Origin: an uncultured Rhodobiaceae bacterium
GTDB lineage: Bacteria; Pseudomonadota; Alphaproteobacteria; Parvibaculales; Parvibaculaceae
Direction of reading: 5' to 3'
Length of the DNA: 55,875 bases
Assembly (NCBI GenBank): GCA_913057645.1
Contig: CAJXOU010000012.1
Coordinates: forward strand, 1 to 55,875
Shown here: in pieces, positions 21,243 through 27,075 of the stretch
Layout: every line of letters starts with the position of its first letter
Numbering within the stretch: the first letter of the stretch is position 1
Position numbers and translations under genes: made by a program
The notes under the pieces: model-generated
Databases searched by the model: none
Seen by the model: the letters and a program-made list of their open reading frames with translations, nothing else
What the model was told of the DNA's origin: nothing

Positions 21243-22139
21243 TCAGGGGCTGAAACCGGGCGGTGTGACGGGGGCTTCGCGCAGCAGCAGGACCGAAAGA
21301 CGGCGGTTGGCGGCCATGTAGGGGTCTTCGGGGAAAAGCGGCTCGGAGTCCGCCTTGCCGACGACCTGGTAGATGCGATCGTTGGAGAGGCCGGCATTTT
21401 CCAGAATGCGCCGCGTCGCGTTCGCCCGGTCGGCGGTGAGCTCCCAGTTGGAGTAACCGGGACGGCCGGCCACGGGGTTCGCATCGGTATGGCCGGAAAT
21501 GCTGACGCGGTTCGGCAGCTTGATGAGAATGCCGGCGACTTCGTCGAGCAACTTGCGCGTCCGCTCGAAAGGCTCGGCGTGGCCGGAGGGGAACATGGAG
21601 CGGCCATCCTGATCGACGATCTGGATGCGAAGGCCTTCGGGCGTTTCATCGATGATGACGTTGCGCGAAAGCTCGGCGAGGTCCGGATTTTCGCGCATGG
21701 CCTGGCGGATGCTTTCGGCGGCGCTGCGGAAGTTCCGTTCGTCGCGCGCGGACTTCTCCTTCATGAGCTTGTCCATCTGCGCGGCGTCCTTCGCTTCCTT
21801 CTCGGCAAGCTCGGGGCTTTTCGGCTGCGCGGGCGTCGAGATCGTCATGACGACCTGCGGCTTGGTGCCGGGCATGCGCGCGCCTTCCTCGTCGAAGGCG
21901 GTGCCGCCCATGATGCCGCCGGCGCCGCTGGTCGAGCGGCTGACATTGGAGGGGGCGAAATAGTCGGCGAGGCCCTGCTTCTGTTCCGGCGTCGTCATGC
22001 TGATGAGCCACATCAGCAGGAAGAAGGCCATCATGGCGGTCACGAAGTCGGCATAGGCGATCTTCCAGGCGCCACCGTGGTGGCCGTGGACGACCTTCTT
22101 GACCTTCTTGAGGATGATCGGCTGTTCGTTGGTGGCCAT
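21243..22139 (-). CDS. motB: Flagellar stator protein MotB
   Basis: A 298-residue stator subunit with an N-terminal membrane helix carrying the proton-channel Asp (WKIAYADFVTAMMAFFLLMW, about residues 25-44) and a C-terminal OmpA-like peptidoglycan-binding domain (about 165-285: SGHTDANPV, ELTADRANATRRIL). MotB anchors the MotA-MotB stator and conducts protons. It starts 20 bases after motA. No other flagellar genes are present in the window. Confidence 0.94.
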   Translation of the reverse strand: MATNEQPIILKKVKKVVHGHHGGAWKIAYADFVTAMMAFFLLMWLISMTTPEQKQGLADYFAPSNVSRSTSGAGGIMGGTAFDEEGARMPGTKPQVVMTISTPAQPKSPELAEKEAKDAAQMDKLMKEKSARDERNFRSAAESIRQAMRENPDLAELSRNVIIDETPEGLRIQIVDQDGRSMFPSGHAEPFERTRKLLDEVAGILIKLPNRVSISGHTDANPVAGRPGYSNWELTADRANATRRILENAGLSNDRIYQVVGKADSEPLFPEDPYMAANRRLSVLLLREAPVTPPGFSP

Positions 22140-22159
22140 CTGGTCCTGTCCTGCGCCCG

Positions 22160-23023
22160 TCAGCTCGCAGCCTGAAGCGAGGCGGTGGACTGTTCGACTT
22201 CAATGAAGGTGGGGCGCACTTCGGACATCAGCGCCTTGCGCGCGAACTCGATCGAGACGGCGGGCGCGTATCCCGCCATGTGCGCGAGGAGGCCGGCTTT
22301 CATCGACAGATAGTATTTGGCTTCGGCTTCGTAGGTGTTGCGCAGCGACTGCGCCATCGGCCCGAAGAATCCGTAGGCGACGAAAACGCCGAGGAAGGTG
22401 CCGACGAGCGCGCCGCCGATCAGGCCGCCGAGCACGGCGGGCGGCTGGTCGATGGAGCCCATCGTCTTGATGACGCCGAGCACGGCGGCGACGATGCCGA
22501 GAGCGGGCGTGCCGTCGGCAAGCGCCTGTATGGCGGAGACGATGCGCTCCTGCTCCTGATGATGGGTTTCGAGTTCCTCGTCCATGAGCGATTCGAGCTC
22601 ATGCGCGTTCTCGGTGCCGAGCGTGATCATGCGCAGGTAATCGCACATGAACTCGACGGCGTGGTGGTCGGCGGAGAATTTCGGGAACTGGGCGAAGATC
22701 GCACTGTCGGCCGGATTCTCGACATGGGCTTCCAGCGCGAGATTGCCCTTGCTCTTGGCGAGCTTGAAGAGCGTGTACTGGAGGCCGAGCAATTCGAGGA
22801 AGGCGTCCTTGTCGTAGCGCGAGCCCTTGAAGAGCGTTCCGAAGATGCTGCCGGCCGCCTTGAGGACGGAGGGAGGATTGGCGATGCAGAACGCGCCGAG
22901 CGCGGCTCCCAGAATGATGACCGCCTCGAAAGGCTGCCACAGAACTTCCAGGTGGCCGCCCATCGCGGCGTAGCCGCCGAAGACGCTCAACAAAACCACT
23001 ACGATGCCGACAATGAGCCGCAT
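22160..23023 (-). CDS. motA: Flagellar stator protein MotA
   Basis: A 287-residue four-helix membrane protein that converts proton flow into torque on FliG. MRLIVGIVVVLLSVFGGYAAMGGHLEVLWQPFE is the usual opening; GTPALGIVAAVLGVIKTMGSI holds the conserved third helix and FVAYGFFGPMAQSLR the fourth. The cytoplasmic loop carries charged residues that meet FliG (MDEELETHHQE region). The frame is open to 23107; ATG 23023 fits the family. Confidence 0.94.
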   Translation of the reverse strand: MRLIVGIVVVLLSVFGGYAAMGGHLEVLWQPFEAVIILGAALGAFCIANPPSVLKAAGSIFGTLFKGSRYDKDAFLELLGLQYTLFKLAKSKGNLALEAHVENPADSAIFAQFPKFSADHHAVEFMCDYLRMITLGTENAHELESLMDEELETHHQEQERIVSAIQALADGTPALGIVAAVLGVIKTMGSIDQPPAVLGGLIGGALVGTFLGVFVAYGFFGPMAQSLRNTYEAEAKYYLSMKAGLLAHMAGYAPAVSIEFARKALMSEVRPTFIEVEQSTASLQAAS

Positions 23024-23297
23024 TTGCCCAAGCACTTTCTTTACGTTAACCCCGGCCGCCCGCCTCGCAGCAAGCCCGCCCCACCAGTTCGGCCATTCTT
23101 GGGGCATGGCTCTTAACAGCGGGTTTAACCAAAGACCTGATTGGGCGCTCTGGCGCCGTTTTGCGCGAAATTCCGCCGATTTGCACGGGTGAGTGTTGCG
23201 CGCGACGCTGTGCGTGGCTTAAACCGGGCCAACTGATTAAGGATGCGTTGACAAACGACCGTTGGCGGGCCGGGGTCCGCGAGGGAGCAAAGGTCAG

Positions 23298-24589: not shown

Positions 24590-25396
24590 ATGCCGGAAGA
24601 GAATCCTGCGGCGGAAGCCGCCGAAAGCGCAACGGATGCGGCCAACGGGGCCGCCGAAGGCGCCGGCGGAGGAGCCGAGGGGGCGGGCGATACCGCGGCG
24701 GGTGCGGCAGATATCCTGGCGCAGTCGGGAGGCGGGGACGCCTGGTACTCGATCGCGTCGTTGCTCGACAAGGGCGGTCCGATCGTCGCGATCCTGCTGG
24801 TCCTGTCGGTAATTTCGGCAGCCGTGATCCTGCTCAAGATATTCCAGTTCTGGTCGGCGGGCCTTTCCAAGCGCAGCTTCGTCGATCCGGCCGTCGACAA
24901 GGTCGAGGCGGGCGATCTCAGCGGCGCGCTCGAGATTCTGAAGAAGCAGAAGACGCCACTTGCCCGGGCGATGGCGGCGGGCGTACGCGCAAAGATGCGC
25001 GGCGATCTGCGCGACGAAGACGTGGCCGCGGAAATCTCGCGCGTCGGGACAATGGAAATCGGATCGCTGCAGCGCTATCTGCGCTGGCTCGAAGTGATCG
25101 GCAACATCTCGCCGCTGCTCGGCCTGCTCGGCACGGTGATCGGCATGATCAATGCCTTCCAGAGCCTGGAGGCGGCAGGAACGCAGGTCGACCCGGCGCT
25201 TCTTTCGGGCGGCATCTGGGTGGCACTGCTGACGACGGCGGTGGGTCTCATCGTGGCGCTGCCGGCGATCACGGCGCTCAATCTCTTCGAGGGCAAGATC
25301 GACCAGGTACGGCTGTCGATGAGGGATGCAGCGGCGCGTGTGATCGCGGCGCTGCATGTGCGGCCGGGATCGGTGCAGTCCAGAGCAGCGCAGTAG
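24590..25396 (+). CDS. exbB: ExbB/TolQ/MotA-family proton channel protein
   Basis: A 268-residue inner-membrane protein with an unusual Ala/Gly-rich N-terminal stretch (about residues 1-48) before helix 1 (GGPIVAILLVLSVISAAVILLKI), then a cytoplasmic loop and helices 2 and 3 (EVIGNISPLLGLLGTVIGMINAFQSL and GGIWVALLTTAVGLIVALPAITALNLFE), the ExbB signature. ExbB pentamers hold an ExbD dimer and use the proton gradient to move a partner protein. It starts an operon of four genes and follows a GGGAGGAG ribosome site. Confidence 0.93.
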   Translation: MPEENPAAEAAESATDAANGAAEGAGGGAEGAGDTAAGAADILAQSGGGDAWYSIASLLDKGGPIVAILLVLSVISAAVILLKIFQFWSAGLSKRSFVDPAVDKVEAGDLSGALEILKKQKTPLARAMAAGVRAKMRGDLRDEDVAAEISRVGTMEIGSLQRYLRWLEVIGNISPLLGLLGTVIGMINAFQSLEAAGTQVDPALLSGGIWVALLTTAVGLIVALPAITALNLFEGKIDQVRLSMRDAAARVIAALHVRPGSVQSRAAQ

Positions 25397-25415: not shown

Positions 25416-25823
25416 ATGTTCGAAGAACCCGTCCGCCGCAGAGGGATGGCCAGCCTGACGCCGCTGATCGACGTGGTGTTCCTGCTGCTCATCTTTTTCA
25501 TGCTGACGACATCTTTCCTGCAGACGCAGTCGCTGTCGGTGGTGACGCCCGCGCCGAGCGCGGAGGATCTGCCGAAGGACGCACGGGTGGTCGAGATCTG
25601 GCTGCTCGGGAACGGTACGCTCGCGATCGACGGGAAGCCGGTCGAGCGTGCAACGCTGACAGAGGCTCTCAACACCGCCATCGGCGAGCGAACGGACCTG
25701 ACCGTCACGATCCTCGCGGAGAAGGGGTCGAGGACGCAGGCGCTGGTTGCGGCCGTGGAGGCGGCTCGGCAGTCGGGCGCGAAGAGCGTCGGCACCGCAC
25801 GGGTGGAGAAGATCGCGCGATGA
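25416..25823 (+). CDS. exbD: ExbD/TolR-family protein, canonical
   Basis: A 135-residue protein with one membrane helix and a periplasmic domain. Its helix starts TPLIDVVFLLLIFFML and keeps Asp19, the essential proton-carrying residue of ExbD. The periplasmic part (AIDGKPVERATLTEALNTAI) is typical. ATG 25416 has CGGAG directly upstream; the frame is open from 25356 inside exbB. The stop overlaps the next start (ATGA). Confidence 0.92.
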   Translation: MFEEPVRRRGMASLTPLIDVVFLLLIFFMLTTSFLQTQSLSVVTPAPSAEDLPKDARVVEIWLLGNGTLAIDGKPVERATLTEALNTAIGERTDLTVTILAEKGSRTQALVAAVEAARQSGAKSVGTARVEKIAR

Positions 25824-26227
25824 TCGAGTTCGACGAAGAACAACCGAGAAAGCAGTTCGAGACGCTGGTGCCGCTCATCAATGTGGTGTTCCTGCTGCTG
25901 ATCTTCTTCCTGCTCGCCGGCACGATGCAGCCGGCGGAGAACGTCGCCGTGTCGCTGCCGGAAGGCGCGCTCAATGACAGGGAGCGCGAGGTGCCGACGA
26001 CACTGATCGTGGAGGCCGACGGGTTCGTGTGGCTCGGCGACCGGCCGACGGACGCGAAATTCGCGGGCAAACTGGTCGAGCAGTATCTGAGCGAGGAGGG
26101 AACGAAGCGCGTTGCGATCAAGGCGGATGCGGATGCGCCCGCCGAAGCGGTGCTCGAACTCATGGAAGGCTTGCGCGAAGCGGGCGTGGAACAGGTGACG
26201 ATCATGACCGAGCGGAGTGGGTCATGA
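25820..26227 (+). CDS. ExbD/TolR-family paralogue lacking the channel Asp
   Basis: A second 135-residue ExbD-like protein. Its helix reads VPLINVVFLLLIFFLL: Asn21 stands where the first copy has Asp19. The rest looks intact (periplasmic domain with GFVWLGDRPTDAKF and VAIKADADAPAEAVLELMEGLREAGVEQVTIMTE). Both copies are in one coupled operon, so a mixed ExbD dimer with one protonatable Asp is possible (inference). The stop overlaps the TonB-like gene (ATGA). Confidence 0.9.
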   Translation: MIEFDEEQPRKQFETLVPLINVVFLLLIFFLLAGTMQPAENVAVSLPEGALNDREREVPTTLIVEADGFVWLGDRPTDAKFAGKLVEQYLSEEGTKRVAIKADADAPAEAVLELMEGLREAGVEQVTIMTERSGS

Positions 26228-27075
26228 GCATGGCGGCGACCATGCCCGAAAACGGCGGGGGGGAACCGCGCGAGTTCCGGCTACGCAATTTCATCATCGC
26301 ATCCGTGGTGCTTCACGGGCTGCTGTTCCTTTCGGCGTTTCTGACATTCGGCGGGATTTTCGGCGGACCTGGGCCGGGCGGCGGCGAGGCGGTGACGTTC
26401 CAGCTCGCGGCGGGCTCTGCCAACGACCGCTATGCGGCGCCGCCAAAGCCGGTGGAAGAACCGAAGCCGGAAGTGAAACCCGAACCACCGAAGCCGCCGG
26501 AGCCGAAGCCGGAGACGGCGGTGCGGAAGGCGGCGAAACCGATTCCGCCGCCGGAGGAAATTCCCGAACCGACGCCTGAGCCCGTCGAACAGGCCTCGAG
26601 CGCGGGCGGCGGCACGCAAGGCGGGCAGGCCGGCGGCGCGGGTGGCGACGCGGAAGAAACGATCCTCAACAAGAAGGGCAACTCGCTTACCGCAGGGCAG
26701 ATCCGCGCGCAGATGACGGGCAAGACCTTTCACCTCGAAATGGGGCGGATCGAACTTGAGGGTGGCAGCAGGCTCATCAACACGATCATCGAGCTTCATG
26801 CCGACGGAACGACGGATGTGGAACTCATCCAGTATTTCCATCAGACCTATCATCGCGGATCGTCGTCCACGCGAAGCCGTGACGGTGACGGCACGTGGTG
26901 GATCGAGGGCAATCGCTGGTGCCATAAGTCGGACGAAATCCAGTACGGCACCACGGACTGCTACGACATGACGAAAGAAGGCAGTATCGTGCGGCTCTAT
27001 TACGGGCCCTGCACGAACATGTCCTCGCAGCTCTGCAAGACAGGCCGCATCGCCGCCGAAGGCGAGATTCGCTAG
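26224..27075 (+). CDS. TonB-like protein with a non-TonB C-terminal domain
   Basis: A 283-residue protein with TonB layout at the N-terminus: one membrane helix (about residues 24-45, FIIASVVLHGLLFLSAFLTF, with a His as in TonB) and a Pro/Glu/Lys-rich spacer (about 75-125). A Gly-rich linker leads to a C-terminal domain (about 155-283) that lacks TonB-C features such as the YP...A...G box. It has DGDGTWWIEGNRWC, TTDCYDM, GPCTNM and QLCKTG: four cysteines and a GTW pattern like small lipocalin-type DUF995 domains. This likeness is from memory. It is coupled to exbB-exbD-exbD. Confidence 0.75.
   Translation: MSMAATMPENGGGEPREFRLRNFIIASVVLHGLLFLSAFLTFGGIFGGPGPGGGEAVTFQLAAGSANDRYAAPPKPVEEPKPEVKPEPPKPPEPKPETAVRKAAKPIPPPEEIPEPTPEPVEQASSAGGGTQGGQAGGAGGDAEETILNKKGNSLTAGQIRAQMTGKTFHLEMGRIELEGGSRLINTIIELHADGTTDVELIQYFHQTYHRGSSSTRSRDGDGTWWIEGNRWCHKSDEIQYGTTDCYDMTKEGSIVRLYYGPCTNMSSQLCKTGRIAAEGEIR

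Follow-up and report, generated by a model that had tools for sequence, protein, structure and literature searches.

Conserved pairing of Asp-type and Asn-type ExbD proteins in Ton-type operons of Alphaproteobacteria and a putative asymmetric motor

In Alphaproteobacteria, a type of exb operon occurs in which two exbD genes stand in tandem, the first encoding an ExbD with the canonical channel Asp and the second an ExbD with Asn at the same position. Judged by the sequences compared here, this pairing, in its fixed order, is old and is maintained by selection. We consider it probable that the products of these operons assemble into an asymmetric Ton-type motor, ExbB5-ExbD(Asp)-ExbD(Asn), whose dimer would have a single protonatable site; the heterodimer is the part that we infer from the gene arrangement and the residues.

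The operon and its two channel residues

The window, that is, the whole stretch of DNA that was analysed (55,875 nucleotides), contains four + strand genes between positions 24590 and 27075, in the order exbB, exbD copy 1, exbD copy 2 and a TonB-like gene (the Parvibaculum operon). Its features are the following:

24590..25396, + strand: exbB, ExbB/TolQ-type pentamer subunit (Pfam MotA_ExbB, 106.6 bits; cut-off 22.9)
25416..25823, + strand: exbD copy 1, 135 aa, with the canonical channel Asp19 (Pfam ExbD PF02472, 76.9 bits; cut-off 25.4)
25470..25472, + strand: codon GAC for Asp19 of exbD copy 1
25820..26227, + strand: exbD copy 2, 135 aa, with Asn21 (Pfam ExbD PF02472, 75.8 bits; cut-off 25.4)
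25880..25882, + strand: codon AAT for Asn21 of exbD copy 2
26224..27075, + strand: TonB-like fourth subunit, with an N-terminal transmembrane helix, Ser27/His31, a linker and a four-Cys C-terminal domain

An ATGA overlap joins exbD copy 1 to exbD copy 2 (genes 2 and 3) and another joins exbD copy 2 to the TonB-like gene (genes 3 and 4), which bears out the coupled operon of the original prediction. A scan for promoters and terminators found none. At other places, the window genome has two canonical ExbB/ExbD sets whose ExbDs carry Asp, and this indicates that the Asp/Asn operon is an extra system. In the same neighbourhood, a motA-motB pair, which belongs to the same motor superfamily, lies on the - strand at 21243-23107, ∼1.5 kb away from the exb operon. 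On contig 8 of the window genome (L143, 53052-53537), two tandem ExbD-like pieces are found in separate short frames, with no above-threshold ExbB neighbour.

The product of exbD copy 2 has Asn21 within ...VPLINVVFLLLIFF..., and that of copy 1 has Asp19 within ...TPLIDVVFLLLIFF.... Both residues align with the channel Asp of E. coli ExbD (Asp25) and TolR. Translation and alignment therefore agree with the earlier claim that Asn replaces the channel Asp in the second ExbD. That copy 2 belongs to the ExbD/TolR family follows from its PF02472 profile score (75.8 bits against 25.4), and its best sequence matches among solved structures are ExbD chains (7ajq_F at 1.3e-09). Its AlphaFold2 model (mean pLDDT 67.0) has a helix at residues 8-35 and a mixed alpha/beta domain. 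With Asn21, copy 2 lacks the channel Asp that characterizes a canonical proton-conducting ExbD.

Conservation, distribution and history of the pair

With copy 2 as query, 40 genomes of the order, which all belong to one family (Parvibaculaceae), gave orthologues at E < 1e-30 in 32 cases. All 32 orthologous operons have Asp in copy 1 and Asn in copy 2, and the gene order is identical. In 27 aligned family pairs, the Asn and the Asp columns are both invariant, and the copy 2 proteins are down to 47% identical to their counterpart in the window. The original prediction had held that a conserved Asn in copy 2 of relatives would reveal selection, and Asp in close relatives a recent point mutation; the alignment gave Asn in 32 of 32 and no Asp in the close relatives. 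Since Asn is found in all the family orthologues and far beyond the family (see below), selection rather than recent mutation is indicated. A recent point mutation at this codon was thus ruled out by the 32 orthologues, and we give practically no credit to a change, or a sequencing error, restricted to this one genome. It is worth noting that two genomes of the family (G003 and G009, loci L140 and L141) have an extra, diverged exbB-exbD(Asp)-exbD(Asn)-tonB operon beside the main one.

To follow the pair beyond the family, we ran the pattern P-L-I-N-[VIMA]-[VIMA]-F as a DNA pattern over 385 alphaproteobacterial genomes, with the reversed pattern as control. The Asn motif was found in 45 of the 385 genomes and the reversed pattern in 2 of 385. 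Outside the family, 42 places matched, 41 of which are second ExbD genes and one of which (L088) is not an ExbD. Both the excess over the control and the identity of all but one of the places argue that the matches are not due to chance. An ExbD gene, and exbB further upstream, directly precede these 41 second ExbDs, except for L122, which is truncated by a contig end before the copy 1 residue. A profile built from 40 Asn-type copy-2 proteins was also run over the 385 genomes, and from its hits we took the best of those that the pattern had not detected, together with some of lower score. The 16 pairs found only by the profile have Asn in copy 2 in 14 cases, Ser in one (L128) and Asp in one (L130). 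In all, the Asp/Asn pair is present in at least 54 of the 385 sampled alphaproteobacterial genomes. Finally, a looser Asn pattern matched in 24 of 398 genomes of the phylum, one match (L150) not being an ExbD, and yielded 17 further pairs, some of them in five genomes from three non-alphaproteobacterial families. By count of family codes, the Asp/Asn pair occurs in 31 GTDB-coded families.

Over 106 tandem pairs, the residue of copy 2 is Asn 104 times, Ser once and Asp once, a count in which 58 pairs came from patterns that themselves require Asn (41 from the class pattern and 17 from the looser one). Copy 1 has Asp in each of the 105 pairs in which the residue can be read. The 48 pairs free of the Asn requirement, namely the 32 family operons, found by similarity to the window protein, and the 16 profile-only pairs, the profile for which was itself built from Asn-type proteins, have Asn in 46, Ser in one and Asp in one. 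The 106 pairs leave out L088 and L150, which are not ExbD, L180, taken from around L150, L143, which consists of broken pieces, and L145 and L146, which are another type of tandem with Asp in both copies. The latter two are each preceded by two ExbB-like genes and do not group with the Asp/Asn pairs; Asp/Asp tandems of the class (these two and the published Sphingobium operon) are undercounted here, as the sample was drawn with regard to the residue.

A few loci deserve separate mention. The second copy with Asp (L130, genome G148) has the motif PLIDVSMFLL, and the second copy with Ser (L128) is from genome G350; the two constitute natural tests of the role of the channel residue. The Asp/Asn exbD pair at L133 (G248) lacks an exbB immediately upstream, and the preceding gene resembles, as judged by eye, a periplasmic iron or heme binding protein. 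At L090 (3563-4426), one reading frame spans both ExbD copies. We discarded this fusion as a proof of contact, because it is probably a frame slip of a draft genome and the topology of the fusion would be wrong.

The codons of the Asn in copy 2 are AAT in 54 pairs and AAC in 50. A single transition in either (to GAT or GAC) restores Asp, which was seen once in 106 pairs. An Asp only one transition away, together with an evenly mixed third codon base, argues that the copy 2 residue is under selection. The same data bear on the idea that the pore residue of copy 2 is free to vary and that Asn reflects mere inertia from one ancient duplication. The single origin of the Asn lineage suggested by the tree (see below) fits this idea. 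However, copy 2 has changed greatly at its other positions, with identities to the window protein as low as 22%, and Asn persists in 104 of 106 pairs with Asp one transition off and the third base mixed. For these reasons, we regard inertia as improbable.

A quick tree was made from 167 ExbDs, with the channel-residue column excluded and near-copies left out. It is weakly resolved, with few columns and 75 of 164 inner branches open. In this tree, the second copies cluster contiguously and are separated from the first copies as well as from canonical ExbD/TolR. Three sequences depart from this layout, namely a long-branched first copy (L164) and the second copies of the two Asp/Asp tandems (L145 and L146), which fall on the canonical side. 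The Ser and Asp second copies (L128 and L130) are nested beside Asn relatives, with supports of 98 and 99. The simplest history would be one duplication, an early fixation of Asn and rare later change.

Among the places read, we found no lone Asn-type ExbD lacking an ExbD gene just before it. This observation is relevant to a further possibility, that Asn-type ExbDs make up a homodimeric complex of their own, which conducts another ion or none. The operon has a single exbB, which could serve both complexes. An Asn-type ExbD was, however, never seen without an ExbD gene just before it, and 101 of the 106 second copies have no acidic residue within 20 residues from the helix proline, so that no obvious ion-binding acid is available. 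In our opinion, such a complex is very doubtful.

The ExbB partner, the fourth gene and the receptors

Aligned with E. coli ExbB, the window ExbB retains the equivalents of two of the residues expected in Ton systems, Thr148 (residue 182) and Thr181 (residue 216), and has Val211 (codon 25220-25222) at the position of the third, Glu176. One report (PMC8599685) describes Thr148 and Thr181 as essential for proton translocation and Glu176 as essential with an unclear function. Thr148 and Thr181 are present in all 102 ExbB partners of Asp/Asn-type pairs. Glu176 is found in 50 of the 102, the others having Val (34), Leu (6), Gln (5), Ala (3), Thr (2), Ile (1) or Gly (1), and it is present in 32 of 32 canonical ExbB/TolQ controls of the class, which were chosen by similarity to E. 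coli ExbB and are hence biased towards Glu176. If the Asp/Asn dimer exists, the frequent loss of Glu176 would belong with it to a single remodelling of the pore.

Among 44 relatives sampled beyond the lineage of the window, 43 have a gene with a TonB_C domain directly after copy 2, and no TonB_C domain was found in the 16 window-type fourth proteins. The fourth protein of the window has a single N-terminal transmembrane helix, a linker rich in Pro, Glu and Lys, and, at its C-terminus, a domain in which four Cys are invariant. In the first helix it has Ser27 and His31, with the Ser-x3-His spacing of the TonB transmembrane helix. The His of the first helix is invariant in the 16 window-type proteins. 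For TonB itself, an SHLS motif is named in PMC12215075. Fourth proteins with the four-Cys domain are those of Parvibaculaceae and of a small number of relatives (L095, L119, L120 and L128), and no Pfam family was found for its C-terminal part. The AlphaFold2 model of the window protein has a mean pLDDT of 55.5 and is better in residues 155-283, with low confidence outside them. This low-confidence fold is similar to small lipocalin-like barrels, the best match being the periplasmic domain of ToxS (Z 9.9, rmsd 2.5, 113 aligned residues); the predicted resemblance is taken as a lead only.

Around 24 sampled loci (of 33 chosen), 9 of 110 flanking reading frames have TonB-dependent receptor domains. 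A search of plasmids with the window copy 2 protein gave no match, and searches with the proteins of two relatives gave Leisingera and Tritonibacter for one and a single Leisingera record for the other. On the Leisingera aquaemixtae plasmid NZ_CP081052.1, exbB, exbD (Asp), exbD (Asn) and tonB adjoin siderophore genes, the neighbours being siderophore ABC genes, a siderophore-interacting protein and a siderophore receptor. The TonB_C domain in the next gene, the nearby receptors and the Leisingera cluster together indicate that, as far as gene content can tell, the system is a Ton system outside the window's lineage, and that it serves siderophores at least sometimes.

A putative asymmetric motor and its relation to known systems

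In the proposed mechanism, the pore of the ExbB pentamer would hold one copy of each ExbD, and the ExbD dimer would thus have one protonatable site and not two. The Asn partner would act approximately as a permanently neutral, protonated-like site, which would cross the hydrophobic wall and never load or release a proton. Two modes of action can be envisaged. In the first, the motor would step 72 degrees per proton, with 5 protons per turn and not 10. In the second, it would rock, with one stroke for each proton. If rotation requires that both sites are neutral, the motor would turn whenever the Asp is protonated, at one proton per two steps; if a strict alternation of charge is required, only rocking would be allowed. 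Under either option, the proton cost per cycle would be lower, and the motor would pull on the TonB-like subunit.

The pairing of the genes, their order, their overlap and the dependence of both exbD genes support a mixed dimer. The two exbDs overlap by ATGA in 51 pairs out of the up to 103 for which the spacing was measured, which is what is expected if both ExbDs are made in equal amounts. Of the earlier interpretation of this operon, the retention of Asn by selection (32 of 32) and the coupled operon stand, and the mixed dimer is the best reading, one that we infer. On the other side, both copies carry Asp in one relative (L130), the fourth gene of the window lacks the TonB_C domain that would point to its target, the tree is weakly resolved, and ExbD(Asp) homodimers could be doing the work. 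It is also known that MotB D32N is dominant negative. The channel Asp is reported to be essential in E. coli ExbD (PMC8599685). A mixed dimer would therefore need adaptation. As to the broader proposition, that these operons encode widespread natural 5:2 motors with an obligate Asp/Asn pore heterodimer and one proton site, working at 5 protons per turn or as a one-stroke rocker, we see the chances as evenly balanced.

The main competing view assigns the work to a homodimer of copy 1 and gives copy 2 a regulatory or anchoring role, such as docking to peptidoglycan or TonB, or plugging the pore as a non-conducting brake. The exbD2 gene of Xanthomonas campestris is dispensable for iron uptake and needed for another phenotype that requires tonB1 (PMC3551730), which indicates that second ExbDs can hold separate roles. 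In addition, copy 2 appears to retain a transmembrane helix and an ExbD-like periplasmic domain, both as predicted by the model. However, the strict 1:1 pairing, the fixed order and the frequent ATGA overlap suggest equal amounts of both proteins rather than an occasional exchange, and docking alone leaves the Asn at the pore residue in 104 of 106 pairs unexplained. We consequently judge a regulatory or anchoring role to be unlikely, and we retain the mixed dimer.

A natural Asp/Asn motor, if real, would be workable under only some of the stepping models proposed for 5:2 motors. PMC12215075 describes the ExbB5-ExbD2 complex, as seen by cryo-EM, with two Asp in unlike surroundings, and states that the rotary models of ExbBD and MotAB all assume 36 degrees per proton with two essential Asp alternating. 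In the turnstile picture, as given in PMC9389320, one site loads while the other unloads; there, the choice between a doubly protonated and a doubly charged intermediate is said to be open for any 5:2 motor. As Asn resembles a protonated Asp, an Asp/Asn motor that works would discriminate between models in which both sites must be protonated and models in which they must alternate. A changed gear ratio would also be a cheap way of setting the proton cost of uptake. In V-type rings, lost carboxylates change the gearing. With at least 54 of the 385 sampled genomes, Asp/Asn systems are common in Alphaproteobacteria.

With the TonB-ExbB-ExbD system of E. coli, the operons described here share an ExbB-type pentamer subunit that retains Thr148 and Thr181 and an ExbD-type subunit with a predicted single helix, and a TonB with a TonB_C domain comes next in most relatives. 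Unlike in E. coli, there are two different ExbDs, the second without the channel Asp, and Glu176 of ExbB is lost in half of the partners (52 of 102), with Val in the window. As in X. campestris and Sphingobium SYK-6 (PMC3551730 and PMC8599685), exbB is followed by two exbDs in a tonB operon. However, tonB is the first gene of those tandem operons, and in Sphingobium SYK-6 Asp25 is described as conserved in both ExbDs and Glu176 as present in ExbB1 (PMC8599685).

A search of the open-access literature, with most subscription papers outside it, gave no report of an Asn-type second ExbD. Tandem exbD ton operons are already known; a Ton-type motor whose ExbD dimer would be built on a single acid appears to be new. 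A similar arrangement among other motors is that of Myxococcus AglR-AglQ-AglS, in which one MotA/TolQ-type gene is likewise combined with two TolR-type genes (PMC9389320). In the same paper, AglQ and AglS are both described with the conserved Asp, whereas the present pair has Asp19 and Asn21, and the question of mixed or separate dimers of the AglRQS TolR-type proteins is said to be open. PMC9389320 also presents the MotB D22N stator mutant, with Asn at the equivalent site, as a mimic of the protonated state. That protein is a laboratory mutant, whereas here the Asn is natural and fixed in one of two paralogues.
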